In this document: positions 1 through 43,924 of the stretch, in pieces
How positions within the stretch are numbered: position 1 is the stretch's first letter
Layout of the letters: the number at the start of each line of letters is the position of its first letter
IMG/VR virus record: IMGVR_UViG_3300027963_000094
Coordinates: 1 to 54,978 of that record
Length of the DNA: 54,978 bases
DNA from: a virus
Reading direction: 5' to 3' (one strand)
Made by a program: the position numbers and the translations under genes
The notes under the pieces: model-generated
The model's database searches: none
Told to the model about the DNA's origin: nothing
What the model saw: only the letters and a program-made list of their open reading frames with translations

Positions 1-154
1 GCAGAAGAACCGTTGTAGGAAGTTCCAGTAAGTCCAGTGCCAATGGTCAAAGCATTTGTGGCTGTGGCAGTAACTGTAATTGACCCACCTAAACTTACAG
101 GCGACCCGTTGATTGTGACTGCGCTATTTGTTAATGACGCATTTGCAATGTTAG
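1..154. repeat. Left copy of 154-bp terminal redundancy
   Basis: The first 154 bases are repeated at 54825-54978 with a single difference (G at 28, A at 54852). The repeat lies inside a fibre gene and keeps its frame, so it is best read as assembly overlap of a circular or permuted genome rather than a functional terminal repeat. The difference changes Thr to Ile in the fibre. Confidence 0.9.
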
Positions 155-1620: not shown

Positions 1621-1622
1621 AC

Positions 1623-2681
1623 TTACCTCGTATAGTAACTAATATTAGGAGCAAAGTAAATCGGACTCTTGTCTCGTTCCTCTTGCTCAGCAATATTCCA
1701 ATACTTTTCAGCTTGCCCTTCAAGGTAAGAGATACGATCCCCTTGAACTGTAGGTAGCTCCATGGCCATCTGATGCGCAAGCATATTCTGAATGGCCAGA
1801 TACCATCTCTGAGGAATTTCTATCTCACCTGATAAATCACCTACATCCTGAATTTGCCGATGTCTCCAGACCACGATTTGTGGAGCGTATGACGACGGTG
1901 CAGGCCAAAGATACATTGCAGGCTGCGGAATGTTACGGTCAAACCAAAATTGCAACGGGTAAGCGCTAGTAAAATTCTTGTTAGGCAGGTTTGTGTAGTC
2001 ATCACGATTCAAACGTGCAAGTGGAATTTCCGTGGCATTTGAGCCAAAAACCACCTGATAAACACCCATATTAGAGCCTGCTGTTTGCAAGATTCTCCAA
2101 TACGGCGTGCTTGCTGAAGGCTCTAAATCATAGTAGATCCATGTGCCTGCAACCCAAGTAACTGCTCCGGGCGCGTAAACCGTTGTCCAAGTCGTGCCAT
2201 TGGTAGAAGACTGAATTAAGAGGGTCACTGAGCCGGATATTGCCGGTAGTATACCCACGGTCCCCATGTAGATGTCATTTCCAGACCCGTTGTTGATACC
2301 AATAAAGCCCGTGTTAGTGGTTAACTGGCAAATATTGGTGTATATACCATCAAAAGCGTTGGCTGCAACGCCAGAAGAACTGTTTGCGCCAGTGTTATTT
2401 GCAGTAACTGTTCGGTAATTAGAATTCAAAACATCTACCGTGCCTGTTGGCAGATAGTAAACATACTTGTCGGGATTAAGACCTATGACTGTCTTGTCAA
2501 TACACCAGTATTGAATGCCGCGATTTGCAAGATTAGAAAGCAAGTAGTAAAGACTATCCTTAGATGCCGATACTTGCTCATTGGTTAATTCTTCAGCCAG
2601 CTTTCCGGCACGACGCGCGCCATGATCAATCAGATTTTGAACCGTGATTGTTGTTTGGCCAACTGTTCCACTAGTGCTCAT
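1623..2681 (-). CDS. Head-tail adaptor (P22 gp4-like) with inserted beta domain
   Basis: This 352-residue protein has flanks that look like a podovirus head-tail connector subunit. The N-terminus (residues ~10-60) is helical with the DSLYYLLSNLANRGIQYW signature. The C-terminus (~235-352) has RDDYTNLPNKNFTSAYP, a proline-rich strand region, and helices (IPQRWYLAIQNMLAHQMAM) ending in EKYWNIAEQEERDKSPI. Between them, at ~90-220, is a Gly/Thr/Asn-rich stretch that looks like a galactose-binding or jelly-roll insertion (SSTNGTTWTTVYAPGAVTW, YWRILQTAGSNMGVYQV). Such proteins form the ring beneath the portal. A second, shorter adaptor candidate lies at 47397-48032. The assignment is from motif memory and context, with good confidence for the family and less for the insertion. 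Confidence 0.7.
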   Translation of the reverse strand: MSTSGTVGQTTITVQNLIDHGARRAGKLAEELTNEQVSASKDSLYYLLSNLANRGIQYWCIDKTVIGLNPDKYVYYLPTGTVDVLNSNYRTVTANNTGANSSSGVAANAFDGIYTNICQLTTNTGFIGINNGSGNDIYMGTVGILPAISGSVTLLIQSSTNGTTWTTVYAPGAVTWVAGTWIYYDLEPSASTPYWRILQTAGSNMGVYQVVFGSNATEIPLARLNRDDYTNLPNKNFTSAYPLQFWFDRNIPQPAMYLWPAPSSYAPQIVVWRHRQIQDVGDLSGEIEIPQRWYLAIQNMLAHQMAMELPTVQGDRISYLEGQAEKYWNIAEQEERDKSPIYFAPNISYYTR

Positions 2682-2684
2682 ACA

Positions 2685-3230
2685 TTACCACCCAGGACAA
2701 TTCCAACGTTTAAGAGATGCGGCCTTACGAGTAAGCTCGCCTTTTTCATCGCGCTTAGGCCCCGGCATTCCAGACATTCTAGCACAGAATGAATCCTTAC
2801 GACCTTGATCAGCTTTTGTTTTTGGGTTAGGCGCAGGAGCTTTAAGATTAGAGCCAGTTGCACGATTAAACTTATCACGGCCTTTTTTCGTTAATCCGGC
2901 GCCTTGACTTGTAGGTAGCTTCTCACCACGAGAGACCGAGAGTCTAGGGTCACCGCCATCTTTCATTTTGGCTGTTTTGGCTGACTGCTTAAAGTCTTCA
3001 GCCGTTGGCGCGCCTTTGCTACCCACTCTGCGCATTTTCTCCCCAGAGCCTTCAGCGATTCTTTCACGTTTTGCATGAATGTTGGCATATAAACCGCCTT
3101 CTTTAAATTTCTTGCCTTTATCAGCCTTGACAAACTCTTTGCCAACTTTTTGCGGCACACCACCAAAGCCATCTTTTGTATGCGCGGCGGCTTGCATTAA
3201 ACGATGCTGAGCTGGTGATTTGCTTGGCAT
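2685..3230 (-). CDS. Conserved basic phage virion-region protein (RMSGM family)
   Basis: This 181-residue protein is very Lys/Arg-rich. It begins MPSKSPAQHRLMQAAA, a start common to small phage structural-cluster proteins. Its C-terminal half carries a conserved block: GLTKKGRDKFNRATGSNLK, then RKDSFCARMSGM, then TRKAASLKRWNC. I recall this block from podovirus and myovirus head-region proteins with DUF annotations (possibly DUF6321, not certain). It contains two Gly-Gly motifs (FKEGGLYAN and MKDGG) like those in four other virion-cluster proteins here. It starts at ATG 3230 and ends 3 bp before the adaptor start. High basicity suggests contact with packaged DNA or RNA, but the function is unknown. 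Confidence 0.7.
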   Translation of the reverse strand: MPSKSPAQHRLMQAAAHTKDGFGGVPQKVGKEFVKADKGKKFKEGGLYANIHAKRERIAEGSGEKMRRVGSKGAPTAEDFKQSAKTAKMKDGGDPRLSVSRGEKLPTSQGAGLTKKGRDKFNRATGSNLKAPAPNPKTKADQGRKDSFCARMSGMPGPKRDEKGELTRKAASLKRWNCPGW

Positions 3231-3232
3231 AA

Positions 3233-3637
3233 TTAGTTATACCCTTTGACCATTTCCAAAATGCACCAGTATGTGTCACCAGAAGATGCATCAGCAGTGC
3301 TAAACATAATGTCGCCAGTAACACCCGTACCGCCGTTGTTGGTAATACCACCAAAGCCTGACATGTCAAGCATTTGCGTTGCACCGGGCGAGGACAAAAA
3401 GAACGGCACATCTGTTGTGGCGTCCCAATACATTCTGACTTCCATGCCATGGTTGGCAATGTAGATTTTATTGACTGTAACTCTGGTGCAAGTTTGACCC
3501 GACGCGCTTGGCGTTAATGCAGAAACATCTACTTTTAAAACTGCAGATTCACCAGTGCCATCACTGATGTTTGTAAATTTCATGATGACCATGCGCTCAC
3601 CATCGATAAGCGTCTGGCTCGTAACCGAATCAGCCAT
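3233..3637 (-). CDS. Small structural protein, unknown
   Basis: This protein has 134 residues from ATG 3637 (MADSVTSQTLIDG). That start is preceded by GGAG at the right spacing and is preferred over an upstream TTG at 3649. The sequence reads as a small all-beta protein: RMVIMKFTNISDGTG, VTVNKIYIANHGMEVRMYWD, then a Gly-rich loop and DTYWCILEMVKGYN at the C-terminus. I recall similar proteins next to major capsid genes in environmental phages, with no assigned function. It follows a UUCG-loop terminator, so it may be expressed at a lower or separately tuned level. A decoration or minor head protein is a guess from location. Confidence 0.65.
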   Translation of the reverse strand: MADSVTSQTLIDGERMVIMKFTNISDGTGESAVLKVDVSALTPSASGQTCTRVTVNKIYIANHGMEVRMYWDATTDVPFFLSSPGATQMLDMSGFGGITNNGGTGVTGDIMFSTADASSGDTYWCILEMVKGYN

Positions 3638-3659
3638 ATTTTTCTCCAATTAAAAGGAA

Positions 3660-3673
3660 GGGGCCGAAGCCCC
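3660..3673 (-). terminator. Rho-independent terminator with UUCG loop
   Basis: On the minus strand GGGGC (3673-3669), TTCG and GCCCC (3664-3660) form a C(UUCG)G-capped hairpin. It is followed by TTCCTTTTAATT. It lies between the stop at 3682 and the ATG at 3637, so it could attenuate transcription leaving the capsid cluster. Confidence 0.7.
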
Positions 3674-3681
3674 GACCTTGA

Positions 3682-4146
3682 TTAGCAAGAACCGCCGTAA
3701 GCTTTTTTCATCTTACCACCGGTTTTGTACTTTTGAATTACGCCACCTGTAGCGTACTTCTCAATTACTCCACCAGTTTTCAGACCTTTATGAGCTTTAG
3801 ACGCAGACTTATCTGCATGAGACTTAAGATCGCCCTTAATGCCTTTAATAGCTGACATCTCAGCTTTGTGCATCTTAGGAGACTCTACCTCACCGCCCTT
3901 TTTACGCATCATTGGCGCAGGCATTGCACCAGTTTCCATACGAGTGGGGATACCACCCATACCGATACCGCGCTTAGGCATGGCAGGCGCCATACCACGG
4001 CGAGCAGCCATAGGCGCACCACGTGCAGAAGCTTTTTCAGGGATAATTCCACCCATAGCTTTCTTTACTGCGCCGCCTTTTTTAAGCTTCAGTTCAACTG
4101 AAGGCTCAGTGGTCATCATCTTAGGCATTGGTTTAAATTGACCCAT
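3682..4146 (-). CDS. Lys/Gly-rich virion-cluster protein with repeated KxGG motifs
   Basis: This protein has 154 residues from ATG 4146 (MGQFKPMPKMMTTEPSVE). The start is preceded by AAGGGG and preferred over the longer frame from 4212. It is low-complexity and very basic, with Met/Pro/Ala/Gly-rich middle segments. It has at least seven short motifs of the form K-x-GG or Y-x-x-GG, including KKGGAVKKAMGG, RKKGGEVE, KTGGVIEKYATGG and QKYKTGGKMKKAYGG at the C-terminus. The same motif occurs once or twice in four other proteins of the structural clusters. No known domain is recognised. It sits between two structural genes, so a virion-associated, perhaps DNA-binding or scaffold-interacting, role is likely but unproven. 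Confidence 0.65.
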   Translation of the reverse strand: MGQFKPMPKMMTTEPSVELKLKKGGAVKKAMGGIIPEKASARGAPMAARRGMAPAMPKRGIGMGGIPTRMETGAMPAPMMRKKGGEVESPKMHKAEMSAIKGIKGDLKSHADKSASKAHKGLKTGGVIEKYATGGVIQKYKTGGKMKKAYGGSC

Positions 4147-4156
4147 GTCGTTCCCC

Positions 4157-5134
4157 TTAGGCTTGTGTGACGCCAAATGCGCCAACACGAGTTGCATTTG
4201 GACCTGCCGCAATTGCTGGCAGGGCTATTCCCATTACAAGACGCTTGATACCGTCACAAGCAGACGAGGGCAAATAAGTACCCCTCACATCACCAGTGGT
4301 TGTGGTTGCTGTGGCGGTAGCGGCAACAGTCATAGTTCCAGCATCTTCAGCCAAAGTATTGTCCCAACCAGCGCGGGTAACGTAGCCTCTATCAATGATA
4401 CGCAATGGTGCGCCCAAGATGTCGGTTGTACCTACCGCAACAGTTACCACACTTCCGCCAGAAGCAGTGACACTAGAGATCTGGTAGAAGGCTTTTTTAC
4501 CATTAACAGTTGTTGATGCCACTGTTCCTGTTGCAATCACCTCGCTCATGGCTTGACCGTAGTAGTCGTAACCAGAAACAGTAATGTTGACGGAAGTTGG
4601 AGTACCAGCACCAGTGGTTGTAGAAACCGCACGAGGGCAGTCAAGTTGCAAGCCTGTTGCACCGCCTGTAATTGTGGCGGATGTAACACCAGCACCTGCG
4701 GCAAGCGTGAGCGTGGTAGCAGTTGTGATGACAGCGGCGACAATGTTGGTTGTCAGCTTTGCTTGTGGTACAGCGTCCCAAACGTAGAGGCGACCCAATG
4801 GGCCAACACCTGTGCTCATTGGCGATGGGTTTTGCAACAAAGCATTACCTGAGCCAATAATTGTGGCGCTTGCCACAGTCTGTGAAGCACTTACGGTGTA
4901 AGTACCAGTACCACCTGTACCCGTGCCAAAAGCAGTAATGTAGGTACCATTAGTAAGCGACGTTGAACTGTCAATGAACATACCCACAGTAATTGGGTCA
5001 CCCGAAAGCATGGCGGTGACGGTCAATGTGGTGGTAGCAATTGAGCCAGTAAAGGTTGCAACAGCAGGGTAGGCGTCCGCACCTTGATAGGTAATGGCAG
5101 AGCCTAGAAAAAGATCATCTGAAAACTGGGGCAT
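4157..5134 (-). CDS. Structural protein, Thr/Ala/Gly-rich (capsid-associated)
   Basis: This protein has 325 residues from ATG 5134 ([18 protein letters not shown]). That start has AAGGAG seven bases upstream, and the alternative start at 5161 has none. The sequence is almost entirely short beta strands rich in Thr, Val, Ala and Gly. An Ig-like or beta-sandwich repeat is plausible in residues 20-100 ([20 protein letters not shown]). The C-terminal half contains [18 protein letters not shown] and a conserved-looking [19 protein letters not shown]. It follows the major capsid gene and its terminator, a position often held by head decoration or head-fibre proteins. The exact role is unknown. Confidence 0.65.
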
Positions 5135-5175
5135 GGTCTGCTCCTTGAAAAGTTTGACCAAACATTAAGAAAAGA

Positions 5176-5195
5176 GGCAGGAGTTTATTCCTGCC
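5176..5195 (-). terminator. Rho-independent terminator after the major capsid gene
   Basis: On the minus strand GGCAGGA (5195-5189), a six-base loop and TCCTGCC (5182-5176) form a 7-bp GC-rich stem followed by TCTTTTCTT. It lies 12 bp after the capsid stop. It probably separates very strong capsid expression from the downstream structural genes. Confidence 0.8.
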
Positions 5196-5206
5196 CCCAC
5201 TTGGGT

Positions 5207-6121
5207 TTAGACGCCGGGTGTACCGTACATTGAGCGCCAGTCAGTCCAACCAAGGTCATAACGCTCGGTGGCCTTATAACGCATTGAGTCGGTCTCAAAG
5301 TCGCCTTCCATGGTCTTTTCCAAGCCACGGCGCATCATCAACTTCATGCCTTCAGGTGCATCAGTCTGAACCCACCACGCTGTGGCAGATGTCAAACGGG
5401 AGATAACTGAAGCGCCTTCAGGCATCAGACCAATTGATTTAATTGGGTTGATGTCATTGTTGGCTGTGCCAGCACGAAGAACAGATTTCAGCAAAACTTC
5501 AGCTTGGAAGACATTACCGGGAGCAACCACTAACTTCAGAGGTTGCAAGCGGATCTTCTTGCCGTTGTTGTCTACTGCTTGACGAACTTGGATCAGCATC
5601 TGCTCCAAGGAAGTCTGGCTTAAGTTAGCAGCTGTGTTCAGCAAGTTACTTGCTGTACCGCTAACCAGTGGGTGCGTAGAAGCATTTAACTGAACGCCGT
5701 CGCCACCAGCATATGCCGAGTTAAACGCTTGGTTCATCACGTTGGCAGCCAATGTCTCTTTAGTTTCCACCAAAGATTGAGCCAAGTGCTTAGCGTAAAC
5801 TTGACCGATACGGATGTGGTCGCCGTCTTCAACCAATACCTTAGTCAATGCGAAGGCTAAGCCATACACATTGTAGAGGTAACGCTTGAGGAACAGCACG
5901 CCACCTTGTTGGTAAGCAACAGGGCTGCCGTCAGGCAACTGAGGTGCTGCACCAAAGCCGTACAAGACAGGCTCTTCGTGGTAGTTACGTGGAATACCTT
6001 GTTGTTCACGGAAAACCGTGGACCATTCGTCCGAACGTTGATCGTAGACACCGTCGAAACATTCATTAAGAATTGGTTCGACGATGCTACGAAAGTCGGT
6101 ACTGCGCATTGGAGCTGCCAT
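5207..6121 (-). CDS. Major capsid protein (HK97 fold)
   Basis: This 304-residue protein has features of a podovirus major capsid protein. It has an N-terminal region with DEWSTVFREQQGIPRN, an E-loop/P-domain stretch around DGDHIRIGQVYAKHLAQSLVE and LAANVMNQAF, and a central LVVAPGNVFQAEVLLKSVLRAG. A C-terminal A-domain has TSATAWWVQTDAPEGMKLM, YKATERYDLGWTDWRSMYG. The pattern resembles Mu gpT-like and environmental podovirus capsids. There is no obvious N-terminal scaffold (delta) domain, and a separate scaffold gene lies at 7291-8283. The start at 6121 has one of the strongest ribosome-binding sites in the window (AAGGAGGGAG), and a terminator follows, both fitting a highly expressed capsid gene. 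Confidence 0.88.
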   Translation of the reverse strand: MAAPMRSTDFRSIVEPILNECFDGVYDQRSDEWSTVFREQQGIPRNYHEEPVLYGFGAAPQLPDGSPVAYQQGGVLFLKRYLYNVYGLAFALTKVLVEDGDHIRIGQVYAKHLAQSLVETKETLAANVMNQAFNSAYAGGDGVQLNASTHPLVSGTASNLLNTAANLSQTSLEQMLIQVRQAVDNNGKKIRLQPLKLVVAPGNVFQAEVLLKSVLRAGTANNDINPIKSIGLMPEGASVISRLTSATAWWVQTDAPEGMKLMMRRGLEKTMEGDFETDSMRYKATERYDLGWTDWRSMYGTPGV

Positions 6122-6136
6122 GGTTCACTCCCTCCT

Positions 6137-6709: not shown

Positions 6710-6751
6710 GATTGAGTCCTTTCAAATATTGAAATAAAAACTTTGTCATGT

Positions 6752-7288: not shown

Positions 7289-7290
7289 GA

Positions 7291-8283: not shown

Positions 8284-8301
8284 ATATCATCCTTTCAAAG
8301 C

Positions 8302-8899: not shown

Positions 8900-8901
8900 G
8901 T

Positions 8902-9189
8902 TTAGCGGCCACGACCTGCAGACTTCTTCACGGGGATCGCGATGGTTACTGCAAAGCCAGACATCTTCTTGGCGGCTCCGCCTTTTTTCATCGTCGCAAT
9001 TTTGCCAGTAGGCTTAGGCAAGGGTGGAGGCGCAGAGCCACGTGCTGGCAAATTAGCCACACGAGACTCAGGCATCACGCTGCCGCCTGACTTATATTTT
9101 TGAATAACGCTTTTGCCTTTAGCAATGGCTGTGGACTCACCCATTCCCATTGCCAAGCGCTTGTGCATGTTAATGCCTTCATCAGCCAT
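8902..9189 (-). CDS. Small basic virion-cluster protein with GG motifs
   Basis: This 95-residue protein starts at ATG 9189 and overlaps the portal stop by 8 bp (MADEGINMHKRLAMGMG). It is basic and low-complexity, with QKYKSGGSVMPESR near the centre, a proline-rich APPPLPKP and MKKGGAAKK near residue 70. The QKYxxGG motif is the same as in the protein at 3682-4146, which suggests a common partner or processing signal. It has no catalytic residues in a recognisable pattern. The neighbouring portal suggests a small head protein. Confidence 0.6.
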   Translation of the reverse strand: MADEGINMHKRLAMGMGESTAIAKGKSVIQKYKSGGSVMPESRVANLPARGSAPPPLPKPTGKIATMKKGGAAKKMSGFAVTIAIPVKKSAGRGR

Positions 9190-11722: not shown

Positions 11723-11725
11723 AAG

Positions 11726-14700
11726 TTATTTTCTCCGCATCGTGAGGGCGTATCGCATTTGATCGGTAGTCGGATTTTGTTGGACTATACCACCATTTGC
11801 CTTTTTAATGAAGGCTTGACCCTGAGTTTGTGTACGAGATGCACGTTCAGCTTCCGCCTGTACGAGATCTTCCAGCTCGGCCTGAGACTTGGCACGTTGC
11901 CCCAGCTCTGCTCCAAAGCGGTTATTGTGGGTATCCATACCATAGTCAGCTGGCATTTGCCCTCCAAACATGGATTTGACAGCCTGAAGCGGGGAAGTCG
12001 TGAACTCGTGTGCTTTGCCTAGGAATTCAGCTGTCTTAGGCCCATACTTACGTGAAAGGGTGCCTGCTGCCAACATATGCCTTGCTGCATCCCGCTGGTC
12101 ATCTTGCCCTTTTTGGCCGGGGTACATCTCATAAGCTACAGTCTCCGAGTAAGTCGGGACACTGAATAGCCAAGGCGTTGGCACGTCAGGCTTTTTGACA
12201 GACCCACCGGCTTGGTAGCCACGAACTGGACCGCCATTGGCGTAGTCGTCCATGCCTTGGTATCTTGCAACAAGCGCTTCAAGCTTAACTTCAAGAGCCT
12301 GCATAAGCTCAGGTGACCATTCATATCCTGTTGTGGCCATGCCTAAGATGTCTTCAAATGCCTGTTCGCCACTGCGATTCAACGCACGTAAATGCTGTCG
12401 AATTAAACGAACAGCAGCACGCGGATTAGGCGTGTCTGTATAGTAACCGTCCTCAAGCAAGTTTACAATCTCTTCAGCTGTTGCACTATACTCAGCGTTT
12501 CTAGCAAGAGCTTCAGGTAAGCCACGTGTCTCAACAAGTTGCGCTAACGCCTCGCGTTGTGCCTGTGTTGGATTATGCGTGCCAATCTCATCATCGCCTC
12601 GAATAAAGTCCGCTAACTCAGCAGGTTGCCATTGTTCAGTAATCTCGCCATTGTCAAGCAAGCGTTGATAATCTCTAACGTAGTTATTGTATAGAACATC
12701 TAATTGCTCAGGGCTTATCTGCGCAATGGCGCCTTGATCTGGTACAGGTCTATCAGGGCGTATTTGCGTAATAGGCGGCTCAATCAAATCAACCATGTTA
12801 GCCAAGTCTCTAAGCGCTTGCGCAGTTGTAGGATTAGTCTCTATCTCTGCGGCCTCGTTAAGTCGAGTTGCAAACGCCGCAGGCTGTTCTCTAAGAGCTT
12901 CATCTACGTCAGGAAAACCTATGCCATCAGCAATAGTTTCACTAATGTGGCCAACATCACGTGCAGTAGGCGCAGGCGCGTTTTCGCGTAGATAATTAAC
13001 AAAGAGGTTAAAGTCTCCAACTTCAAAGCGTCGCATTGCAGGGGCAGGCGGTACACCATTTGGATTCAGTGCTCTAAGTTGCGGCTCTTCTAATAACCGC
13101 TGCATTTCAAGAGCAGTTGCTTGAGCCGCTCTAGCACGCTCGATAGGTGCTAAACCTCGTAACACCTCATGATCGTAGTCATTATTCTCTAGCAATGTTA
13201 AGGCGTCTACGCGATGCCCAGGCGCTTCTTCACCAATAATACGTTGCGCGAGATCACGAGGGTTAAACTCAATGTAATTGGCGCGTTGGCGAAGTGCTTG
13301 CGCGTAATCGCGACGTTCAGTTTCCGCTAAAGAGATCCAGTGATTGTTTGCCGCTTGATTCAATGGGTTGCTTAACTCATTTGCCAAGAAGCGCAGATCA
13401 TTAGGGTTTAATTCCGGATCATTTATCGCGTTTTCAAGTTGAAATATACGATCATTACGTTGATTATCAAGATCTGCAGGGCGTGGTTGCGCAGTTGCCT
13501 CAACGTCATCAGCTAGTCTATTTAACTCACGCGTAATAGTAGCATGGGTAGCGTTCACACTTTCTGCGCGCAACGCATTAGCGTAGCCTACAGGGTCTAC
13601 CTGCGGGTTATATTGCGCAGCTACATTGCGCGCCATTTCAGCGTAGCGACGAGCAATGGTCTCACTTAAAATGCGTAGCTCATCAGCGGCTGTATCCACA
13701 GTATTTTCAAAGTCAAAAGCCTGAGGTCGACGCGCAGGTGGCTGCGCATCTGCTGGCTCCCAATCACGTATGTACGCACTTTCCATTTGATCAGCCAACT
13801 CATTCAATACTATCTCTGCACTACCGTTAACAGCAGCGTCTGCCTGTTGCCGTAGAGCGCGAATATACGCATCGGTGTCATTTGCGGGGTCAAGCGCCCT
13901 GTCAATCTCCCCACGACCTTCTGAAATAAAGCGCAAAGCGGCGCGTACTTCGTCAGCAGTTTGCACACCCCATTGTCTATCAGCTGCCAACGCTGCATCA
14001 TGCGTCATACGCAAGTAATCAGGTCTTACTTCTGGCAATAAGCGATTGTTTTCTCGCCAATTTGCGTACTCGTCAATCATATTGCCAGTAATTTCAGGTG
14101 TGGTTGCATCTTCCCAGCGAGCTGCAAAGTCCTGTAACCAATCTACTTGCGCAGGCGATAAGCGATCGCGGTACGCAGTAAGCAGTTCTGGCGTGTCTAA
14201 ATTAGGCATTGGGTCGCCACGTTGCTCAAAAGCAAAAGGTTGTGCCGCTTCCTCAGCGGCTATACGCGCGGCTACGTAATCTGCTTGCAACCCTAAAGTT
14301 TGCTGTAAGTCTCTAATGCCTTCAGCAATAATGTTGGCAACTATACGTGGGCTATTGGCGTATTCGTTCTCAAGATCATATAGTCGTTGATTAGTAAGCT
14401 CTAATGCACGAACTGGACCTTGCAAGTTTTGATACGAATCAAAGTAATCACGGATGCCACTAAAGAATGTTTCTGCTTGAACAAACTGATTGCTCTCCCC
14501 TGCCTCATCAAATGCGCGTCTTTGAGAATCAAGTGTATTGTCGATTGACGACGCCACAGCGCCTGAAGTAGACGCTGACAAGCTTTCACTAGGCCGTTGC
14601 GACAAGACTGCAGGTGCTGATTCTTGCGGCGCATTAGCTTTAAGCTCTTCAACATAATTGCGAATGTCGCTGCTTGTGACAAACCGCGGCAGTCCTGACA

Positions 14701-17296
14701 GGTCATACTTTTTAAACGTAGTCACAGGTGTATTAACAACAGCGGCCAGCGCACTGTTCGACATACGCTTGCTATCGTAGATACCTAAGTTCTCATTCAT
14801 CTTATCGCTAACACCACGAATTCTATCTTCACGGCTGTTCAGATAAGACTTAATGCCTTCAACATACTCAGTCTTAACAGCACCGTTTTTGCGACCTGAC
14901 GCAAAGTTAATGTCATACTTACCAGATGAGCTAGGGTTAAAGTCAAAAATGGCAACAGGCTCACCTGTAACTACATCTCTAAAGCTAACCATTTGCGAGC
15001 CATTTGCAACAGCGTTAATGTATGTCCCTCTTGGGCTGGTTGCATTCGGGTCACGCTGGCCTGTAACAATGTCATAAATTGGAATGTACTGGCGATCACC
15101 GGTGCCGGGATGCCAAGGGTTTGGCTTATTTTTAACATTACCGCCTTCGCCAATGCAAACGTCCAAAGCCAAAGTGTCTTCACTAACTAATTGCGCAACT
15201 TGCTCAGGCGTAAAGCGATTGGTGATCTCCAACGCGCCAACGTTGCCAAAGACCTTGTCATTAGGAATATACAACGCCGCGCTTCGTGCAAACTGGTTAT
15301 CAGCATCCGTCTTAAATTGCTTCTCTTTAGCTTGCGCAAGCTTTTCTTTAGCAATACGACCTTCAGCAGTATCGCGTATATATTTTTCAACAGTCATCTT
15401 TGGAACTTTGTCCAACTTTATTTTACGCGACATCACATCGCTGTAAAAGCTTTTTGCGAGGTCACCAAACCCAAGCTCACGCAATCGTTGTGGTGATGCC
15501 ATATACACACGCTCTTCATCAGGTGTTCGCATTAGTGCAGGGTAAAACTGCTGCTCACCGTATCCAAGGTCTTCTTTCAAGCTCTTGGCGGTGTCTGCGT
15601 TAATTGCAATGTCAGTTGCAGCTTCATACGCAGAGCCTAAACGCAAATTGTCAACCACCTTTTGTTGCTTTCTATACGCGGCGTTTGCTTTATCAGACTC
15701 ACGTGATGCCTGTGCAAAAGGCTCATACCTTCCAAGATTCATACCTTCAGGCACAACACCTGTATTAGGGTCAACTGCGCCGTAACCTAGCTGCTGGGCA
15801 ATTGCCTCCTGCTCACGTTTACGAGTTGCAGCGTCAGCAGATTGTTGTACCAAGTCAGACAACTGCTGATTTGCTGCAACCAATGCCTCATCAGTTGGTG
15901 TTTTGACTGGCATGCCTGCTGCAGCGCGCTTATTGCTAACTATGGAACCTGTCATGTTTGCGCTATCAAATATTTCTGATGGCGGGTAAAACGTTAAGCC
16001 TTGGCTTGCCAGCTTGGCTGCAGGCTCATTAGGCGTGCCAACCTTCTCAATGATGTAATTGGTAAACTGGGAATTAAGCCAATTGGCTGCAGCTTCATGC
16101 ATTGCAGGCAACTCTTCTGCAGACGGTAAGTCAAGCTCCGCTCTGTATTGCATGCCTTTAGGCGTATTTAAGAACTCGTCGTACATCTCTAATGAGTGCG
16201 CAGCAGATGCTTCCCTATCGCCGAATCTGGCTTTATACGCCGCCAATGCCGCGCCTTCTGATGGGGCGTCAGGAAACATCTCATTGGCCTTTGTTTTAAG
16301 GAAAGACTCGAACGCTCTGCGTGCAGACGCTGATTCAGGTTTACCTAAAATGTTGTGCTGTATCTCGTCCAATGCCTGTACAGGCGTCATATTTGTATCA
16401 CTAATGACACTACGAACAAGATCACGTGCAGGTGTGTAAGTCGCAGCATCTTGCTTTGCAGTTGCAGGCAGTGTGGCAGATGTAATCCTTGACCCTTCAG
16501 GTCGCATGGCATATAGCTTAGGGTTTGTTGGCTGCATGGAAGCTGGGAGCCCAGGGATAGGTGGCAACCCTTGCATTTCCCTTTGCGCCATAATGTCGCC
16601 AATGCTATCAGCAACGCCTTGGAGCTTAGCGCCGTATGTAGGCTGACCTGTGATTGGGTCTAACCTTTGCATGCCAGATTGCGCGTTCACAAAGTCTGTA
16701 GGTATATCCTTGACTTGCCTGCCTACACGCGTGGCCTCAGCGCCCATAACCCGCAGATCATTAGGGGTAAATGCTGGGCGGCCAGTTGACATCTGCCCAA
16801 GGTACGCAGGCAGATCAGCCATGTACGGCGCAATCGCGCTTGTGAATTCCTGCGCCATTGGCGTTTGCGGCGCGTTCTGTTGCATGAACTGCGTGGCAAC
16901 TTTCTCGGCGTATGCAGGCGCTTTGCCTGATGTAAATGTGCCAGCAGGTGATGTGGTTAAGCTTTCACCAACGCCTTTGACCGCAGCCACAGCAGGCACG
17001 GTGATGATACCTGCAGCTTCACGCATGGACTTGGCCATCATTAGCGGATTGAACTTGGTGGCCAACTCAGTAAAGTTACCAGCAGCTGAGCCCAACGGGT
17101 CAGGCGGCGTTTGTGATGGCGGGACTGGGCGGCCGTAGCCGGGGATCTGTGATGCCAAGGACTGTGGAGCTACGAACTTCTCCATCTGCTGCGGCGTAAG
17201 TCTGTTCTGCTTTGACAGCTCTAGATTCATTTGATCTAGTGTAGGACCACCGTCATCGCCTATGATGTTACCTTGCGGATCGTAGATTGCTGCCAT
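11726..17296 (-). CDS. Giant multidomain protein between terminase and portal (polyvalent-type), C-terminal His/Glu/Asn domain
   Basis: This 1856-residue protein sits where phages rarely carry large genes. Residues 1-~400 are Ala/Pro-rich. A middle block at ~760-900 has LALDVCIGEGG, PNPWHPGTGDRQYIPIYD and VSFRDVVTGEPVAIFDF. Residues ~1000-1640 are repeated helices (ANALRAESVNATHATITREL). At ~1665-1685 it has DYANGGPVRGYQAGG. The C-terminal domain at ~1730-1810 has DQRDAARHM (R1739, H1740), GKAHEF (H1763, E1764) and MDTHNNRFG (D1788, N1791, N1792). I recall this pattern from toxin and phage domains annotated DUF6973. Large multi-domain proteins of this kind have been described as polyvalent proteins that may be injected with phage DNA. 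Function, and whether the C-terminal block is catalytic, is inference. Confidence 0.65.
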   Translation of the reverse strand: MAAIYDPQGNIIGDDGGPTLDQMNLELSKQNRLTPQQMEKFVAPQSLASQIPGYGRPVPPSQTPPDPLGSAAGNFTELATKFNPLMMAKSMREAAGIITVPAVAAVKGVGESLTTSPAGTFTSGKAPAYAEKVATQFMQQNAPQTPMAQEFTSAIAPYMADLPAYLGQMSTGRPAFTPNDLRVMGAEATRVGRQVKDIPTDFVNAQSGMQRLDPITGQPTYGAKLQGVADSIGDIMAQREMQGLPPIPGLPASMQPTNPKLYAMRPEGSRITSATLPATAKQDAATYTPARDLVRSVISDTNMTPVQALDEIQHNILGKPESASARRAFESFLKTKANEMFPDAPSEGAALAAYKARFGDREASAAHSLEMYDEFLNTPKGMQYRAELDLPSAEELPAMHEAAANWLNSQFTNYIIEKVGTPNEPAAKLASQGLTFYPPSEIFDSANMTGSIVSNKRAAAGMPVKTPTDEALVAANQQLSDLVQQSADAATRKREQEAIAQQLGYGAVDPNTGVVPEGMNLGRYEPFAQASRESDKANAAYRKQQKVVDNLRLGSAYEAATDIAINADTAKSLKEDLGYGEQQFYPALMRTPDEERVYMASPQRLRELGFGDLAKSFYSDVMSRKIKLDKVPKMTVEKYIRDTAEGRIAKEKLAQAKEKQFKTDADNQFARSAALYIPNDKVFGNVGALEITNRFTPEQVAQLVSEDTLALDVCIGEGGNVKNKPNPWHPGTGDRQYIPIYDIVTGQRDPNATSPRGTYINAVANGSQMVSFRDVVTGEPVAIFDFNPSSSGKYDINFASGRKNGAVKTEYVEGIKSYLNSREDRIRGVSDKMNENLGIYDSKRMSNSALAAVVNTPVTTFKKYDLSGLPRFVTSSDIRNYVEELKANAPQESAPAVLSQRPSESLSASTSGAVASSIDNTLDSQRRAFDEAGESNQFVQAETFFSGIRDYFDSYQNLQGPVRALELTNQRLYDLENEYANSPRIVANIIAEGIRDLQQTLGLQADYVAARIAAEEAAQPFAFEQRGDPMPNLDTPELLTAYRDRLSPAQVDWLQDFAARWEDATTPEITGNMIDEYANWRENNRLLPEVRPDYLRMTHDAALAADRQWGVQTADEVRAALRFISEGRGEIDRALDPANDTDAYIRALRQQADAAVNGSAEIVLNELADQMESAYIRDWEPADAQPPARRPQAFDFENTVDTAADELRILSETIARRYAEMARNVAAQYNPQVDPVGYANALRAESVNATHATITRELNRLADDVEATAQPRPADLDNQRNDRIFQLENAINDPELNPNDLRFLANELSNPLNQAANNHWISLAETERRDYAQALRQRANYIEFNPRDLAQRIIGEEAPGHRVDALTLLENNDYDHEVLRGLAPIERARAAQATALEMQRLLEEPQLRALNPNGVPPAPAMRRFEVGDFNLFVNYLRENAPAPTARDVGHISETIADGIGFPDVDEALREQPAAFATRLNEAAEIETNPTTAQALRDLANMVDLIEPPITQIRPDRPVPDQGAIAQISPEQLDVLYNNYVRDYQRLLDNGEITEQWQPAELADFIRGDDEIGTHNPTQAQREALAQLVETRGLPEALARNAEYSATAEEIVNLLEDGYYTDTPNPRAAVRLIRQHLRALNRSGEQAFEDILGMATTGYEWSPELMQALEVKLEALVARYQGMDDYANGGPVRGYQAGGSVKKPDVPTPWLFSVPTYSETVAYEMYPGQKGQDDQRDAARHMLAAGTLSRKYGPKTAEFLGKAHEFTTSPLQAVKSMFGGQMPADYGMDTHNNRFGAELGQRAKSQAELEDLVQAEAERASRTQTQGQAFIKKANGGIVQQNPTTDQMRYALTMRRK

Positions 17297-17310
17297 GTGC
17301 GCACCTTAAG

Positions 17311-37220: not shown

Positions 37221-38228
37221 TTATCCTGGAAAGTCGCCTAATGATTTGGAGTAATCCGCTATTTGCTGTGCAGTAGGCCCTGGTGCTGCGCCCGTTGCGT
37301 CTATAGTGTTACCGCTTGGAAACAACCCACTTATAAAATTGCCTGCTGCCGTGCCAAACGGTGTTTGACTTACGCCGCCAATGATTGAGCTTAAGCCTGC
37401 AATTTGCTGAAGTGGTGAAGCTGCATAGGCGCCAGGGATTGGGCCTGTGTAGGTATTGGCAACTGATGTTGGCACATTGTAACCACGAAGTGCTTGTGCG
37501 CCAAGATTGGCAGCTGTCAACGGGAACAGTTGCTGGTTTTGATTGATGGTTTGCTGCTGACTGCCCATGGTGGCCAGCGCGTTAATGTCTGCCAAGTTAG
37601 CTGCTTGGCCTGCAGTTGCAAGACTGCCGTACTGCTGCGCAGCATTTAGCTTTTGTGTTTGATCAGCTTGTGCAGCTCGTAATGCTTCAGTATAGCCTTG
37701 CTGCAATGCCTGTGATTGCGCAGCTTGTGTATTTTGTAGTCCCGTGTTAATGGCTTGACCAAGAACCTCGGCGCCACGCTTAGACCCGAATTGGCCAGTG
37801 CCAACCGCTGATGCTGTAGCCTGCGGGGCCAAGAATTGCTGAATATTGCGCTGACCCAATGTCCCTAGTGCATCCACAACCTGCGTTGTGTAAGGGTTCA
37901 TGAACTGCTCAATCCGGCTTTCGCCGTCTTTAATTGGCAATCCTGTTTTTGGATCTACAGGCTTTGCCGTAATATCGGTTTGACCAATATTACTAGTTGC
38001 TTGCAATGCAGTATTGAAATACCCAGGGTAAGTATTGGTTGTGGTTGCAGCTTTCTCAAATGCTGCAGTTTGCAGCGGCTGCGCATTAGCATACGAGGCG
38101 CCTGCAACATTTGCGGTAGTACTTTTTGCTAAGTCACTTAAATAATCAGTGTACCAAGACGGCGCAGATGTTACTTGATTCTGCGTCGTGGTGATATTCG
38201 GTAGTGGATCACCTTGCATTAAACTCAT
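37221..38228 (-). CDS. Candidate ejection/DNA-transfer protein
   Basis: This 335-residue protein starts MSLMQGDPLPNITTTQNQVT. It has PSWYTDYLSDLAKSTT near the N-terminus and Gln/Ala-rich helices from ~100 to 230 (RNIQQFLAPQATASAVGTGQ, QALQQGYTEALRAAQADQTQ). A GTGQFGSKRGAEVLG element lies at ~145. A hydrophobic end has QIAGLSSIIGGVSQTPFG. Ala/Gln-rich helical proteins with a hydrophobic end, encoded next to the large internal protein, resemble podovirus DNA-transfer proteins. It overlaps the 1899-residue gene by 4 bp (ATGA). Confidence 0.5.
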   Translation of the reverse strand: MSLMQGDPLPNITTTQNQVTSAPSWYTDYLSDLAKSTTANVAGASYANAQPLQTAAFEKAATTTNTYPGYFNTALQATSNIGQTDITAKPVDPKTGLPIKDGESRIEQFMNPYTTQVVDALGTLGQRNIQQFLAPQATASAVGTGQFGSKRGAEVLGQAINTGLQNTQAAQSQALQQGYTEALRAAQADQTQKLNAAQQYGSLATAGQAANLADINALATMGSQQQTINQNQQLFPLTAANLGAQALRGYNVPTSVANTYTGPIPGAYAASPLQQIAGLSSIIGGVSQTPFGTAAGNFISGLFPSGNTIDATGAAPGPTAQQIADYSKSLGDFPG

Positions 38229-41200
38229 TTCATGCCTTTCAAATATGACAGGGGTGACTTAGCCTTAGGGGGTATTTTACCAACAGGGGCTGATCTTTTG
38301 TGTTCTCTTATGCTTTCACGCATTTTATCCAAAACTTGGGCACCAGCCTTATTTGAGCCATTGCCCAGTGCTGCAACTGTATCAGCGTCAAACACGTACT
38401 CGCCATCCGCTAACATGGCGGGAATACTATCTGACTGGCCATCGCCTGCACCTTGCACGTAATTGCCGGTCTTTCCAGTAATAAACTTGGGAATATGCTC
38501 TACTTGACCGCCTTTAGCATAGCCCGATAGCGGGCTGCCACCAAGATATTTTAGTCCAGATGCAGTCAAGTTGCCTGTACTCACGCCCGGGATCATCGTG
38601 CTATTATCGCTACCGCTTACTGGATTCCCGGGAGATGGCGTGCCTGCAAGTTTGGCCCCTACAAAGCCGGTGCCTTCTTCAGTCTCAGCAGCTTCTGCAG
38701 TGGCAGGCTTAACCCGACCTGTTAAGACTTGCAATAGCTTGGAGTCTACATTAGCCAATTGTGGGTAAAGTTGCGTAAGTTGCGTCATCCCTGAATCATC
38801 CTTAATTCCTGCGCCAGCCAGCATTGTTGGTGTTAACGTCCCGGGCAATGCACCGGTACTTGCTGGAGTTGTTACTGCACCAAGTGCGCCTGACTGCGTT
38901 GTCTTTGTTGGTGTCTTTGTTGTAGGCGTCTTTACGCTTGGTGTTGTAGTTTTTGTAGGGTCTGTTGGTGTGGTTGTAATGGTTGGAGGTGTTGTCGTAT
39001 CAGTTGGTGGAGTAGATATAACAACAGGAGGCGTTACATCCTCAGGTGGGGGCGTGACAATACCGGGAGGTGTTACTGGCAAACTGCCTGTAGGTATTGT
39101 AGGCGTTGTAAGTGTAGGTATGTCTGTATTGACAGCTGGGTTAGTCGTAACTGTTGGGTTAGTCGTAATCGTTGGATTAGTTGTAATCGTTGGGTTAGTC
39201 GTAATCGTTGGATTAGTTGTAACAGTCGGATTAGTTGTAATCGTTGGGTTTGTAGTAACTGTTGGGGTTGCAATAACAGTGGCCAACGGGTTAGTTAAAA
39301 CTGTAGGGTTTATATTAACGTTAGCGTCAATTGCAGCTTGCGCATCAATCGCAGCTTGTGCGTCAGCGGCAGCCTTAGCATCAGCTGCGGCTTTAGCTTT
39401 AGCATCCGCAGCAGCCTTAGCCGCAGCCTTAGCCGCAGCCAGAGCTGCTAACGTGGCATTTGTTGTTGGGGCAGCTGTTACCGTGGCAGCAGCGGCGGCG
39501 TCTGCAGCAGCCTGCGCATCAGCGGCAGCTTGAGCAGCTGTAGCAGCATCCGCAGCAGCCTTGGCGTCCGCAGCAGCTTGAGCGGCAGCAGCAGCGTCAG
39601 CAGCAGCCTTAGCATCAGCGGCAGCTTTAGCATCAGCGGCAGCCTTAGCAGCAGCAGCGGCATCAGCGGCAGCCTTGGCATCAGCGGCAGCCTTAGCATC
39701 TGCTAGAGCTTTAGCCTCAGCTGCTGCAGCAGCCTTGGCAGCAGCATCCGCAGCAGCATCCGCAGCAGCCTTGGCAGCGGCATCCGCAGCAGCCTTAGTG
39801 GCAGCATCGGCAGTTGCAGCAGCCGCGGCAGCATCAGCTAGAGCCTTAGCATCAGCCGCAGCTTTGGCAGCAGCAGCGTCGGCAGCAACTTTGGCGTCAG
39901 CAGCAGCTTTGGCATTTGCGGCAGCAGTGGCAGCAGCAGCATCAGCTGCAACTTGCGCAGCAATAGCTGCATCAGACGTAACTTTAGCATCAGCTGAAAA
40001 CAGTGCGGCAGCTTTTGCAATGGCATCAGCTTTTGCTTGTGCTTCAGCTTGTAGTGCTGCGTCTATTGTTAATTGCGACCCTGTACCTGTTGTTGATGCG
40101 GCTCCAGTTCCGGCTGTTGTCGTTAACGCGCCTGTGCCTGTAGTTGAAGCAGCACCCGTTCCGGCTGTAGTAGCTGCACCCGTTCCTGCTGTAGTTAATG
40201 CGCCAGTACCAGATGTTGTAGCGGCACCTCCACCAACGGTAGATAGCGCGCCTGTATTGGTTGCTGCAGCTGCTGTACTCTTTGCAGCAATTGCAGCACT
40301 TACGTCACTTAAGTTTAACCCTGCCTCAGCCATAGCTGCGCCAACTTCTGCTTGTGACGCGCCGGGATGGTCAGCTAACCAAGAGTTAATGCTCTCATGA
40401 ACTTGATCTTGTGAGATATTATTTTCTTGTGCCCACTTCATCCCTGAACTTGAAAGATCCAAGCTTGAATTTGCATTGCCAATGTTAGTTAAAGTTTGCG
40501 CACCGGCGTCGCTAATTACAGACTGCCCAGTTGATGTGTCTACTAATGCGTTAATTTTGCCTGAGCCGTCTGTTGATGCAATGCCTGACTTACTAAGTTC
40601 TTCGTTAAAGGTGCTGTTAGTATCAGCAATAACTTTTTGAATGTTTGAGACTTCAATAGATGACGAGGTCTTGCCAGCAATAAGACCTTCAATCACGCCT
40701 TGTGTTAAAGACTTATTGATATTTACAGGTCTGCCTAAGGCAACGTCGGTAAGAACATCGGTTGTAAATGCCTCGATAAGATCGGATGTGCCTTCTTTTG
40801 TAAAACTAGCGCCTGCTTTGGTTGTTGCTTTACTAAGCGCGTTACTAACTTTATTAACCAATGCAGCATCTGCAACTCCGCCTGTAGCTACTGTGACTGC
40901 TGCAGCAATTTCAAATGCTGTTGACGCTTCAGCATCAGCTTGCGCATCAGTCTTATTTGCAGCTTTAGCTTCTCTATACTTATCGTTGTAAGCTGCACCA
41001 CCTGATTCCATGGCGTTCAATGCAACATCAACGCCTACAGCTGCAAATTTACCTGCATACTTAAGCACTTTAAGACCTAAGCCAATTGGTAAGCCTTCTT
41101 GGATAACCTCAATGGCAGCCATATTAAGTGACTGCGGATTGTTGTAAACAGCTTTTACGCCTGCAACAATCTTATTTCCTAGTCCTTGCGCGTCATTCAC

Positions 41201-43924
41201 TGCTTGAATAACATTTTGATTGGCTTCATTAACAGACTCTAGCTGCAAAGCCTCACCTGCACGTGTAATTGACTGCCCAGCATTTGTCATCGCGTTTACA
41301 GGGCCTGTAAGACCTAAGGCTGACCCTGTGGCGCCTACAAACTCAATAGTTTGACCCGTTGCTTGATTGATGTTTGCTAAACCTTGTTGCGCAATTGCTG
41401 CAGCGGTAGAACCTTCACCAAAAATGGAATTAATCGCAGCTTTAGCGGCTGTTGCTGCTTGCGCAGCTTTGGCTAACCCTAGGGCGTTGTTTTGCTCAAA
41501 TAATCTTTTGGTCTCAGCGCTAGACTCAGTGGTGTTAGCATTAGCCAATGCTGCGTTTTGGTTAGCCAACCGTTGCGTTTCAGCATTTGATTGCTGGACA
41601 GTAAGGTTGGGAGTCTGCAACGCGCCAATAGTATTGCCTAAAGCGTCTGTAGTTGCTGTACCTGACCAATAGTCAGTATTGCCAGCGTTTGCTACGTTAT
41701 TGGCGCTTGTCAATGCTGCAGTGTTTTTAGCTGCTAATGCACGAGCAGTGGCATCATTCTGTGCTGCAACTGTCTGAGACGCATTAGTTACTGTAGATAA
41801 GTTAGCAGCATTTAAAGCGCCAATCTTAGCATTTGCAGCTGCTGTAGCTTCTTCGCCTGTGCCAGTAGTAAAAGTGCCTGTTACGCCTGTTGCAGGATTA
41901 GTCCATTCAAAGGTAGTATTAGGCCCAAATGCTGCGCGATTAGCTGCAAACGTGTCATTGAATGACGTAGGCTTTGTAACTTTGGCTGCATTTGCCGCAA
42001 CTGCTGCGTCGTAGTTACCAAACTCATCCGTGTAGTTGCCAACATCGGTAAGGATGTTAGAACCATTACCAAAGTTTAACGTATTGATTGCGCCGGTATC
42101 ATTGCCAATTGATGAAGTAATCTGCTTGGTAGATAAGTTTGATGCGCCTGTAAGACCGGTCTTATCAGTTGTTGCCGCAGTTTGCAATGCGCCTACTGTA
42201 TTTTGGCCTTTAGCCTCGGCTATAGTTGCGTTGGCTGTTGCAATAGCGGAATTGATTACAATTTGATCAAGCGTTTGGCCTGATAGAGCGCCTGTTGTAG
42301 CGTTAATAACGAGTTGTTTTTGCGCGTTTGAAAGATCTGCAAACCCATCGATACTACCTAACAGCGTATCAACAGCGGCGCCTGTTCCACCAGTAGCAGC
42401 ACCTTTTAGTACGGCATCGCCAATGTCTTGGCCTGACAATACAGCTTTACCGCCTGCCACAGCTGCATTTTGGAATGCTTTGGATAATATGCCTGAGGAG
42501 TCAACTGTATTAAGAAAGTTGGTGCCGTCTTTAATAGCGTCAAGTCCTGGGATTTGCGCGCCTGCATAACTAATTGCGGCACCCTTAATTGCTTCCCCTA
42601 TATCTTTACCTGATAAGACTTGCACAGCCATGTTAGCTGCAATCTGTTGTGGCAAAGATAAGCCACCTGTTGCAATTGCAAGACCAATTTGCGCAAGTGG
42701 TCCCAAATCTTGCATCAAGATTGCAAGGTCATTAGATGTTGCTTGTGTTGTATAAAAGATAGGATTGCCTGATGCATCAAACTGCACGCGGTAACCGGTG
42801 TTGCCTTTACCGTCAAAGGTGCCGCCAAAGGCATTGCCTTGCTGGCGCTCACCGTATGTGCTGGCAACTTCTTGCCCAGTAAGCTTATTGCCAAATACTT
42901 CTTGCTTTCCTACAGGCGCTGTGTAGACAAGCTCTGCACTGCCTGAATCACCACCACTGTAGACTGTATCTGACTTAACCAAACTGGCGTCAACAGGTTT
43001 TCCATTTTGATCTACATAACCAACTATTTTCTGTGAGTAAAATTGCTGACCTTCACTATCTGTTACCAAGTCGCCTTGCGCGTATACAGGCTGCACCGCT
43101 GCGTCAACAGTTTTAGTAACCTTGCCAAACTGGCTAATATCTGTAGCGCCAGTATCAGCAATGATCTTGGCCATGTCTGCAGCATTCTTTTCAGCAGAGC
43201 CTTTGCCTTCACCTTTCCACTTGTCTGAAGTGCCTTGCGCAAGAATCTGCTGCGTAATCTTAGCTACAACATCTTCTTTGGACATAGGCGCTGCTGCTGC
43301 GGCAGTATCAGCTTGCGCTAACGCGCCGGTAGCTGCTGGAGTAGTAACTACTGGCGCAGCTTGTGCTAACGCGCTGGTTTTAACCACAGCAGCATCAGTC
43401 TGCGCTTTCGTGGCAGCATCCGCTGCAGTTTTAGCAGCAGCAAGTTCATTTGCACGTTGTGCGTCAGCTTGTGCTTTAGCTGCTGCGTCAGCTTGTGCCT
43501 TAGCTGCTGCGTCTGCTTGCGCCTTGGCTGCAGCTGCCTCGTTGGCTCTTTGCTGCTCTGCGTATAAGCGTTGATTTTCAGCTTGTTGCGCTGCCCATTG
43601 CCGCTGATTTTCAGCTTGCTGTGCTGCCCATGCAGCCTCGTTGGCAGCTTGTTGCCTTGCAGCTTCTGCCGCGGCAGCTCTATCAGCGGCTGCAGTATCA
43701 GCAGCAGGTGGTGCTACATTTGCTGAGCCAAAGTAATTATTAACTTCTGCAGTTGAAAAGCCTGTAACCCTTGCAAGATCTGCAACAGACACGCCATTGG
43801 CCGCTGCTGCAGCTGCAATTACGGCAGGGTTGTTAATGTTGGCTTGTACAAACGCAAGAATTACGTCATCTGACAAGCCACCTGTGTCTTCGTATGCTGT
43901 GCTGTATGATGCTTTTGCTGCCAT
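38225..43924 (-). CDS. Giant Ala-rich internal virion protein with tape-measure-like C-terminus
   Basis: This 1899-residue protein opens with coiled coil (residues ~70-190, rich in Ala/Gln/Arg, QQAENQRQWAAQQ). Middle helices have GKDIGEAIKGAAISYAGAQ and IGLGLKVLKYAGKFAAVGV. At ~1300-1530 is an extreme Ala/Lys/Asp repeat (AAADAKAAADAK), and at ~1550-1600 a TTNPTITTNPT repeat. The end has GYAKGGQVEHIPKF, then QSDSIPAMLADGEYVFDAD. The last block resembles the C-terminus of tape measure proteins, but no tail tube genes exist here. It probably is an internal or ejected protein of a short-tailed virion. The repetitive DNA may be unstable or misassembled. Confidence 0.55.
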   Translation of the reverse strand: MAAKASYSTAYEDTGGLSDDVILAFVQANINNPAVIAAAAAANGVSVADLARVTGFSTAEVNNYFGSANVAPPAADTAAADRAAAAEAARQQAANEAAWAAQQAENQRQWAAQQAENQRLYAEQQRANEAAAAKAQADAAAKAQADAAAKAQADAQRANELAAAKTAADAATKAQTDAAVVKTSALAQAAPVVTTPAATGALAQADTAAAAAPMSKEDVVAKITQQILAQGTSDKWKGEGKGSAEKNAADMAKIIADTGATDISQFGKVTKTVDAAVQPVYAQGDLVTDSEGQQFYSQKIVGYVDQNGKPVDASLVKSDTVYSGGDSGSAELVYTAPVGKQEVFGNKLTGQEVASTYGERQQGNAFGGTFDGKGNTGYRVQFDASGNPIFYTTQATSNDLAILMQDLGPLAQIGLAIATGGLSLPQQIAANMAVQVLSGKDIGEAIKGAAISYAGAQIPGLDAIKDGTNFLNTVDSSGILSKAFQNAAVAGGKAVLSGQDIGDAVLKGAATGGTGAAVDTLLGSIDGFADLSNAQKQLVINATTGALSGQTLDQIVINSAIATANATIAEAKGQNTVGALQTAATTDKTGLTGASNLSTKQITSSIGNDTGAINTLNFGNGSNILTDVGNYTDEFGNYDAAVAANAAKVTKPTSFNDTFAANRAAFGPNTTFEWTNPATGVTGTFTTGTGEEATAAANAKIGALNAANLSTVTNASQTVAAQNDATARALAAKNTAALTSANNVANAGNTDYWSGTATTDALGNTIGALQTPNLTVQQSNAETQRLANQNAALANANTTESSAETKRLFEQNNALGLAKAAQAATAAKAAINSIFGEGSTAAAIAQQGLANINQATGQTIEFVGATGSALGLTGPVNAMTNAGQSITRAGEALQLESVNEANQNVIQAVNDAQGLGNKIVAGVKAVYNNPQSLNMAAIEVIQEGLPIGLGLKVLKYAGKFAAVGVDVALNAMESGGAAYNDKYREAKAANKTDAQADAEASTAFEIAAAVTVATGGVADAALVNKVSNALSKATTKAGASFTKEGTSDLIEAFTTDVLTDVALGRPVNINKSLTQGVIEGLIAGKTSSSIEVSNIQKVIADTNSTFNEELSKSGIASTDGSGKINALVDTSTGQSVISDAGAQTLTNIGNANSSLDLSSSGMKWAQENNISQDQVHESINSWLADHPGASQAEVGAAMAEAGLNLSDVSAAIAAKSTAAAATNTGALSTVGGGAATTSGTGALTTAGTGAATTAGTGAASTTGTGALTTTAGTGAASTTGTGSQLTIDAALQAEAQAKADAIAKAAALFSADAKVTSDAAIAAQVAADAAAATAAANAKAAADAKVAADAAAAKAAADAKALADAAAAAATADAATKAAADAAAKAAADAAADAAAKAAAAAEAKALADAKAAADAKAAADAAAAAKAAADAKAAADAKAAADAAAAAQAAADAKAAADAATAAQAAADAQAAADAAAAATVTAAPTTNATLAALAAAKAAAKAAADAKAKAAADAKAAADAQAAIDAQAAIDANVNINPTVLTNPLATVIATPTVTTNPTITTNPTVTTNPTITTNPTITTNPTITTNPTVTTNPAVNTDIPTLTTPTIPTGSLPVTPPGIVTPPPEDVTPPVVISTPPTDTTTPPTITTTPTDPTKTTTPSVKTPTTKTPTKTTQSGALGAVTTPASTGALPGTLTPTMLAGAGIKDDSGMTQLTQLYPQLANVDSKLLQVLTGRVKPATAEAAETEEGTGFVGAKLAGTPSPGNPVSGSDNSTMIPGVSTGNLTASGLKYLGGSPLSGYAKGGQVEHIPKFITGKTGNYVQGAGDGQSDSIPAMLADGEYVFDADTVAALGNGSNKAGAQVLDKMRESIREHKRSAPVGKIPPKAKSPLSYLKGMK
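39131..39276. repeat. 18-bp tandem repeat coding NPTxTT
   Basis: Within the 1899-residue gene about eight degenerate 18-bp units (GTTGGATTAGTTGTAATC type) encode TNPTIT or TNPTVT. They form a Thr/Pro linker between the Ala-rich coiled coil and the C-terminal domain. Confidence 0.8.
39340..40040. repeat. Ala/Lys/Asp-codon repeat tract
   Basis: About 700 bp of degenerate GCAGCAGC- and GCATCAGC-type units encode AAADAK-like repeats in the 1899-residue protein. Such tracts often expand, contract or misassemble, so unit number is uncertain. Long plus-strand frames across this tract are reverse-strand shadows. Confidence 0.8.

Follow-up and report, generated by a model that had tools for sequence, protein, structure and literature searches.

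A short Gly-Gly motif in this lake virus is probably a recognised joint between shuffled protein modules, a judgement that covers recognition and not cleavage. The window (the whole stretch analysed, 54,978 bases of IMG/VR virus record IMGVR_UViG_3300027963_000094) encodes five proteins, designated here by their first coordinate, in which an initial annotation had pointed out KxGG or YxxGG motifs; the motifs that it quoted are present in all five, and all lie on the - strand (Table 1). In protein 2685 the motifs FKEGG and MKDGG coincide exactly with both module joints, and because the motif stands, in at least one protein, exactly where separately encoded blocks join, we regard it as a real joint mark. 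On the most likely reading, the head and tail blocks contain small peptide modules, for the most part basic, that elsewhere are short separate genes and that here have been concatenated into longer proteins, nearly every joint being written as [F/M/Y/K/L]-[K/A]-x-G-G-(x-V). YATGGVIQKYKTGG is an example of a joint-motif peptide.

Table 1. Proteins, modules and Gly-Gly motifs in the window
Feature	Residues (aa)	Window position	Strand	Remarks
Protein 2685, three-module protein	181 in all	2685..3230	-	Pfam, PHROG
phrog_16759-like module of 2685	1-44			phrog_16759 4e-13
phrog_16028 'LYANIH' module of 2685	~47-88			phrog_16028 4e-25
DUF6321 module of 2685	~94-181			Pfam PF19846 1e-20
Joint motif FKEGG of 2685	42-46	3093..3107	-	Directly precedes LYANIH
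Joint motif MKDGG of 2685	89-93	2952..2966	-	LYANIH / DUF6321 boundary
Protein 3682, basic, 8 GG, ends in Cys	154 in all	3682..4146	-	Conserved family downstream of major capsid gene
Motif LKKGG of 3682	21-25	4072..4086	-	GG invariant
Motif KAMGG of 3682	29-33	4048..4062	-
Motif KKGG of 3682	82-85	3892..3903	-
Nine-residue tandem run LKTGGVIEK / YATGGVIQK / YKTGGKMKK / AYGG of 3682	122-152	3691..3783	-
Protein 8902, basic	95 in all	8902..9189	-	Between portal and GroES-like genes
Motif YKSGGSV of 8902	32-38	9076..9096	-
Motif MKKGG of 8902	67-71	8977..8991	-
Protein 11726	1856 in all	11726..17296	-	Gene lies between those for terminase and portal; C-terminal DUF6973 domain (E=4e-7) has motifs on either side
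Tandem motifs YANGGPV + YQAGGSV of 11726	1685-1700	12197..12244	-
Motif KANGGIV of 11726	1832-1838	11783..11803	-	Begins 25 aa from C-terminus
Protein 38225, tape-measure-like C-terminal module (..SDSIPAMLADGEYVFDADTV..)	1899 in all	38225..43924	-	Weak phrog_5448 E=0.003; tblastn
Motif YAKGGQV of 38225	1802-1808	38501..38521	-	Just ahead of tape-measure-like module

The head and tail genes of the window lie on the - strand in two blocks (1285-19183 and 34618-54874), and the replication genes, mostly on the + strand, lie between them. PHROG and Pfam assign a terminase, portal, GroES, capsid, SU10-type adaptor and tail-fibre protein; no tail-tube gene was identified in the window, and the gene set is podovirus-like. 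Relatives of the portal include those of Caulobacter phage RW, Pelagibacter phages HTVC023P and HTVC027P, Roseobacter CRP-902, and DSL-LC04. From their gene neighbourhood, the five motif carriers appear to be virion proteins. We note that the phage-encoded GroES-like co-chaperonin (8302-8724) lies within the head gene block and is present in relatives too. The major capsid protein (5207-6121) carries a YQQGGVL that is invariant in all near relatives; it probably belongs to the capsid fold, was taken as part of it, and is not counted as a joint motif.

The three modules of 2685 match families that are catalogued without function (DUF6321, PF19846; phrog_16028; phrog_16759), and the DUF6321 match (aa 110-176) scores 74.6 bits, above the gathering cut-off of 28.5. 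LYANIH (~50 aa) and DUF6321 (~85 aa) are separate genes lacking the motif in cultured cyano- and pelagiphages, the phages that have modules as their own genes being Eistla, P-SCSP1d, S-RIP1, DSL-LC05, CRP-5, CRP-810 and Bylgja. The stand-alone genes often adjoin scaffold, capsid, portal or terminase genes; phrog_16759 was not seen as a free-standing gene in the relatives examined.

Comparison of fused and free modules shows how closely the Gly-Gly follows fusion. In a set seeded with a query that holds both joints of 2685, and which is therefore biased toward GG and includes many closely related sequences, GG is found upstream of 54 of 54 fused LYANIH modules and of none of 15 free ones, upstream of 47/47 fused and 0/18 free DUF6321 modules, and on the C-terminal side of LYANIH in 47/47 fused as against 0/28 free copies. 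Because of this bias, two further checks were made. Among relatives whose loci were fetched with other proteins (L001-L136), GG is present at all 71 module joints (LYANIH 17/17, DUF6321 26/26, phrog_16759 11/11, YSVKR 17/17). With free-standing queries nearly all matches are free-standing, and inspection of 94 free LYANIH copies revealed none with a real upstream GG, the seeming ones preceding the true start codon; this set holds about five real fusions, three of them with GG. Joints that lack GG occur at L519 (..KAKKG-LYANIH) and L537, and the rule, which is strong in freshwater relatives, is not absolute. Module orders and partners differ (for example YSVKR-DUF6321, 16759-DUF6321 and 16759-LYANIH-DUF6321), each with a joint of the [FMK][KA]xGG type, and joint length is almost fixed (KMKDGG, KMKEGG and the like). 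As in viral polyproteins with GG sites, a conserved Gly-Gly thus stands, with rare exceptions, at the boundaries of units that also exist separately. The rule is demonstrated only for modules of the 2685 type, and comparable boundaries in 3682, 8902, 11726 and 38225 are no more than plausible. A C-terminal tail common to unlike IMG/VR proteins, '[YF]AKGGSV..SxRADGIAQRGKTKG', directly follows the motif and is another candidate module (loci L138, L145, L160, L164, L176, L193, L205, L254 and L256).

The motif was initially described as unlikely to arise by chance. When the loose pattern (KxGG/YxxGG) is tested in each protein against shuffles of its own composition, this is borne out for 3682 (8 observed, 2.5 expected, p<0.002) but not for the other four taken singly: 2685 (3 vs 1.66, p 0.24), 8902 (2 vs 1.01, p 0.25), 11726 (4 vs 2.95, p 0.33) and 38225 (5 vs 3.64, p 0.28). 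Because the loose pattern exceeds composition in 3682 only, the statement was not yet justified, and for the whole set it holds only with a tighter motif, [YFM][AK]xGGx[VI], derived from Gly-Gly contexts listed in annotated relatives. Across 671 non-redundant protein clusters from 119 loci of related viruses the strict motif occurs 53 times forward and once reversed, the motif having been tuned on partly the same relatives and its reversal serving as an internal control; Y at -3 together with V at +2 around GG is found 36 times as against three mirrored. In eight genomes the strict motif occurs 38 times across the 309 genes of the virion module, against 0.95 expected and 0 for its mirror, and at the gene level it is present in 23 of the 309 and in none of 158 replication genes (Fisher p = 7e-5). 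These counts include homologues, which are non-independent, and assign genes to modules by synteny with the window; the motif is thus not equally frequent in non-virion proteins. Because other viral contigs, sampled over 1.13 Mb, show no clear enrichment (7 forward, 4 reversed, 4.7 by shuffle), the strict motif is not general to viral proteins. The in-frame fraction among the matches listed (forward 99/123, reversed 90/120) is not informative. In IMG/VR, the neighbours of YAKGGxV carriers belong to portal, adaptor, minor tail, GroES and terminase families, whereas those of controls are mixed. The motif is real and directional and, in the eight genomes tested, has all its copies in the virion module; the initial observation is to this extent confirmed, although it was misframed.

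The glycine codons at the motif vary synonymously, much as in the background, and selection therefore acts on the protein and not on the DNA; the motif is preserved at the amino-acid level rather than the DNA level. These codons bear on a DNA-level cause, whereby the motif would be a translated Shine-Dalgarno relic or a sequence through which the fusions recombined. Such an origin would account for motifs at gene-fusion points, and AAAGGAGGT would read KGG, but GGA is not favoured (2 of 52 first glycines, against a background of 0.13), and this explanation, largely refuted by the codon data, is almost certainly wrong. The joint motif between the 2685 modules is in no family library searched, and literature searches on it returned nothing relevant. 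It is a real, lineage-wide motif, ordinary in kind (a short linear motif or a processing site) and undescribed as far as our searches reach.

In 3682, all eight GG pairs have K, R, Y, F or M no more than three residues before them. Among 14 relatives its GG columns average 86% conservation compared with 62% for other columns, and individual relatives have between 5 (an incomplete row) and 19 GG pairs. Structure prediction gives a mean pLDDT of 52 from shallow alignments, and the protein is probably disordered. In the 8902 family (20 relatives) all four residues of both GG pairs are 100% invariant, with other columns at 58%. Neither 3682 nor 8902 matches Pfam families, including KGG stress-protein and other repeats, at E<=0.1; searches of cultured relatives returned no match for either except MW202545 to itself, and no 8902 family member was found in bacterial genomes. 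This sequence-specific conservation, the clustering of carriers beside portal and capsid genes, and the rise from 8 to 19 GG in relatives of 3682 would suit a docking code, in which the inner wall of the capsid, the portal or the tail tube would bind a short linear motif and multi-copy proteins such as 3682 would act as multivalent hubs. A single copy per protein should then suffice, however, whereas the motif marks nearly all joints and free modules lack it, such that docking seems unlikely. It is improbable that these basic aromatic-glycine repeats would bind or condense nucleic acid in a sticker-and-spacer manner: 3682, 8902 and 2685 have high positive net charges (+22, +14 and +24), but both large carriers are acidic (-68 and -45) and keep the same motif. 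That the motif binds chaperonin by imitating the mobile loop of GroES (K-x-x-GG-I-V/L) is very improbable indeed; loops such as KTKGGIIL do occur in the GroES of relatives, but the residue right after GG in the motif is usually polar and the window GroES loop has no GG.

Since selection and directionality extend past the two glycines, the joint is probably read by some factor. The most likely single reader, though on balance less likely than not, would be a maturation protease by which the modules are set free, and this would be the most economical one because the mark is at joints and absent from free ends. The initial annotation had suggested processing sites, and this interpretation is partly supported. 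On such a reading, which we advance tentatively from the sequences, a candidate protease of phage or host would cut at the joint GG and free the modules, much as a single short motif directs prohead proteases to several internal head proteins. The placement of GG precisely at the limits of units that elsewhere are free-standing genes, and the near-fixed joint length, are as expected of it. Against it, Pro directly follows GG in 17 of the 47 joints on the LYANIH C-terminal side, which is awkward for a cut there, and in the Pfam and PHROG scans of window proteins no peptidase family reached the cut-off, the one weak PHROG 'peptidase' match being at 34618-35631 (E=0.014). Moreover, separate genes can yield separate proteins and phages seldom need polyproteins, and the nine-residue spacing of motifs in 3682 would give fragments too small for obvious modules. 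A gene of DSL-LC04 in the same position as 11726 encodes a PcfJ domain; this was considered as a candidate enzyme and set aside, the window protein having no Pfam PcfJ match.

The tolerance of Pro after GG is more readily accommodated if the joint is an uncut, sequence-specific spacer, whose Gly-Gly would keep fused modules independent and unstructured for packing or passage through the tail channel. Gly pairs and GGG at joints are in keeping with this, as is the prediction of motif segments at pLDDT ~40-50, from shallow alignments. A spacer has no need of direction, yet forward copies far outnumber reversed ones, and selection acts at positions -3 and +2 relative to GG. We consider the uncut spacer rather unlikely, ranking it after the protease and ahead of docking.

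The tape-measure proteins provide a further context for cleavage of the joints by a protease. The C-terminal region of 38225 is homologous by tblastn to annotated tape-measure genes of Caulobacter GB2A (2e-16) and DSL-LC04 (3e-5), and in relatives, too, YAKGGQV precedes the tape-measure-like module. The C-terminus has a mean predicted pLDDT of 48, and long Ala/Lys/Asp-rich and NPTITT repeat stretches lie ahead of it. The same kind of C-terminal module is known from Gordonia phages and lambda gpH; unlike those systems, the window virus is podovirus-like and most of its motif carriers are not tape-measure proteins. Lambda gpH has FATGG at 733-737 and YATGG at 778-782, near its C-terminus, and a cut after Gly737 would leave a computed 80.1 kDa of 92.3. 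The processed product of gpH has a reported size of ~78 kDa; its cleavage site was not found in the literature searched. The tape-measure proteins of lambda and T5 are processed near the C-terminus (PMC10038345; processing also PMC3224144), as is that of DT57C (PMC10713586), but T5 is cut after Arg1127 and not at GG (PMC10038345). We treat the connection with tape-measure proteins and gpH as a lead, not as evidence. In its widest form the protease proposal would have environmental tailed phages use an undescribed Gly-Gly maturation protease for which the motif is the recognition sequence. Its substrates would be small internal virion peptides strung together like polyproteins and possibly the C-termini of tape-measure proteins, that of gpH included; as a whole this is doubtful.

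Several known systems are similar in part. The proteases of adenovirus and African swine fever virus act on Gly-Gly at precursor joints, and adenovirus sites have a hydrophobic residue two before GG. The window motif shares the Gly-Gly at joints but differs from adenovirus sites in having K or A two before GG and a bulky residue three before, and no homologue of these proteases was seen. Prohead proteases, of which T4 gp21 is an example, recognise Glu-based motifs. As with their sites, one short motif recurs in several internal virion proteins of the window virus, but here it is Gly-Gly, and a protease candidate was not found among the window proteins scanned. Another prohead protease is SPN3US gp245 (PMC10052503, PMC7411985). 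Encapsulin cargo-loading peptides (PMC8346489), short motifs on disordered tails that load an HK97-fold shell, would work alike, although the window motif is at internal joints; the likeness is one of mode of action.

With modules and a joint mark, the 'hypothetical' small genes in the virion blocks of lake and marine phages acquire a readable grammar, and annotators could split such fused proteins correctly. Whether the joints are cut could bear on the old question of tape-measure processing, as in gpH.

Among the other features of these families, we note that a Cys lies at or next to the C-terminal end in the 3682 and 2685 families (..GGSC, ..KADEC, ..KCNY; in DUF6321 ..RWNCPGW and ..RKWKC). 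A LYANIH-like match is also present in Limnohabitans phage DC33 (L461, PQ492659), which is filed under Inoviridae, but its 39 kb circular record seems far too large for that assignment and the taxonomy looks wrong.
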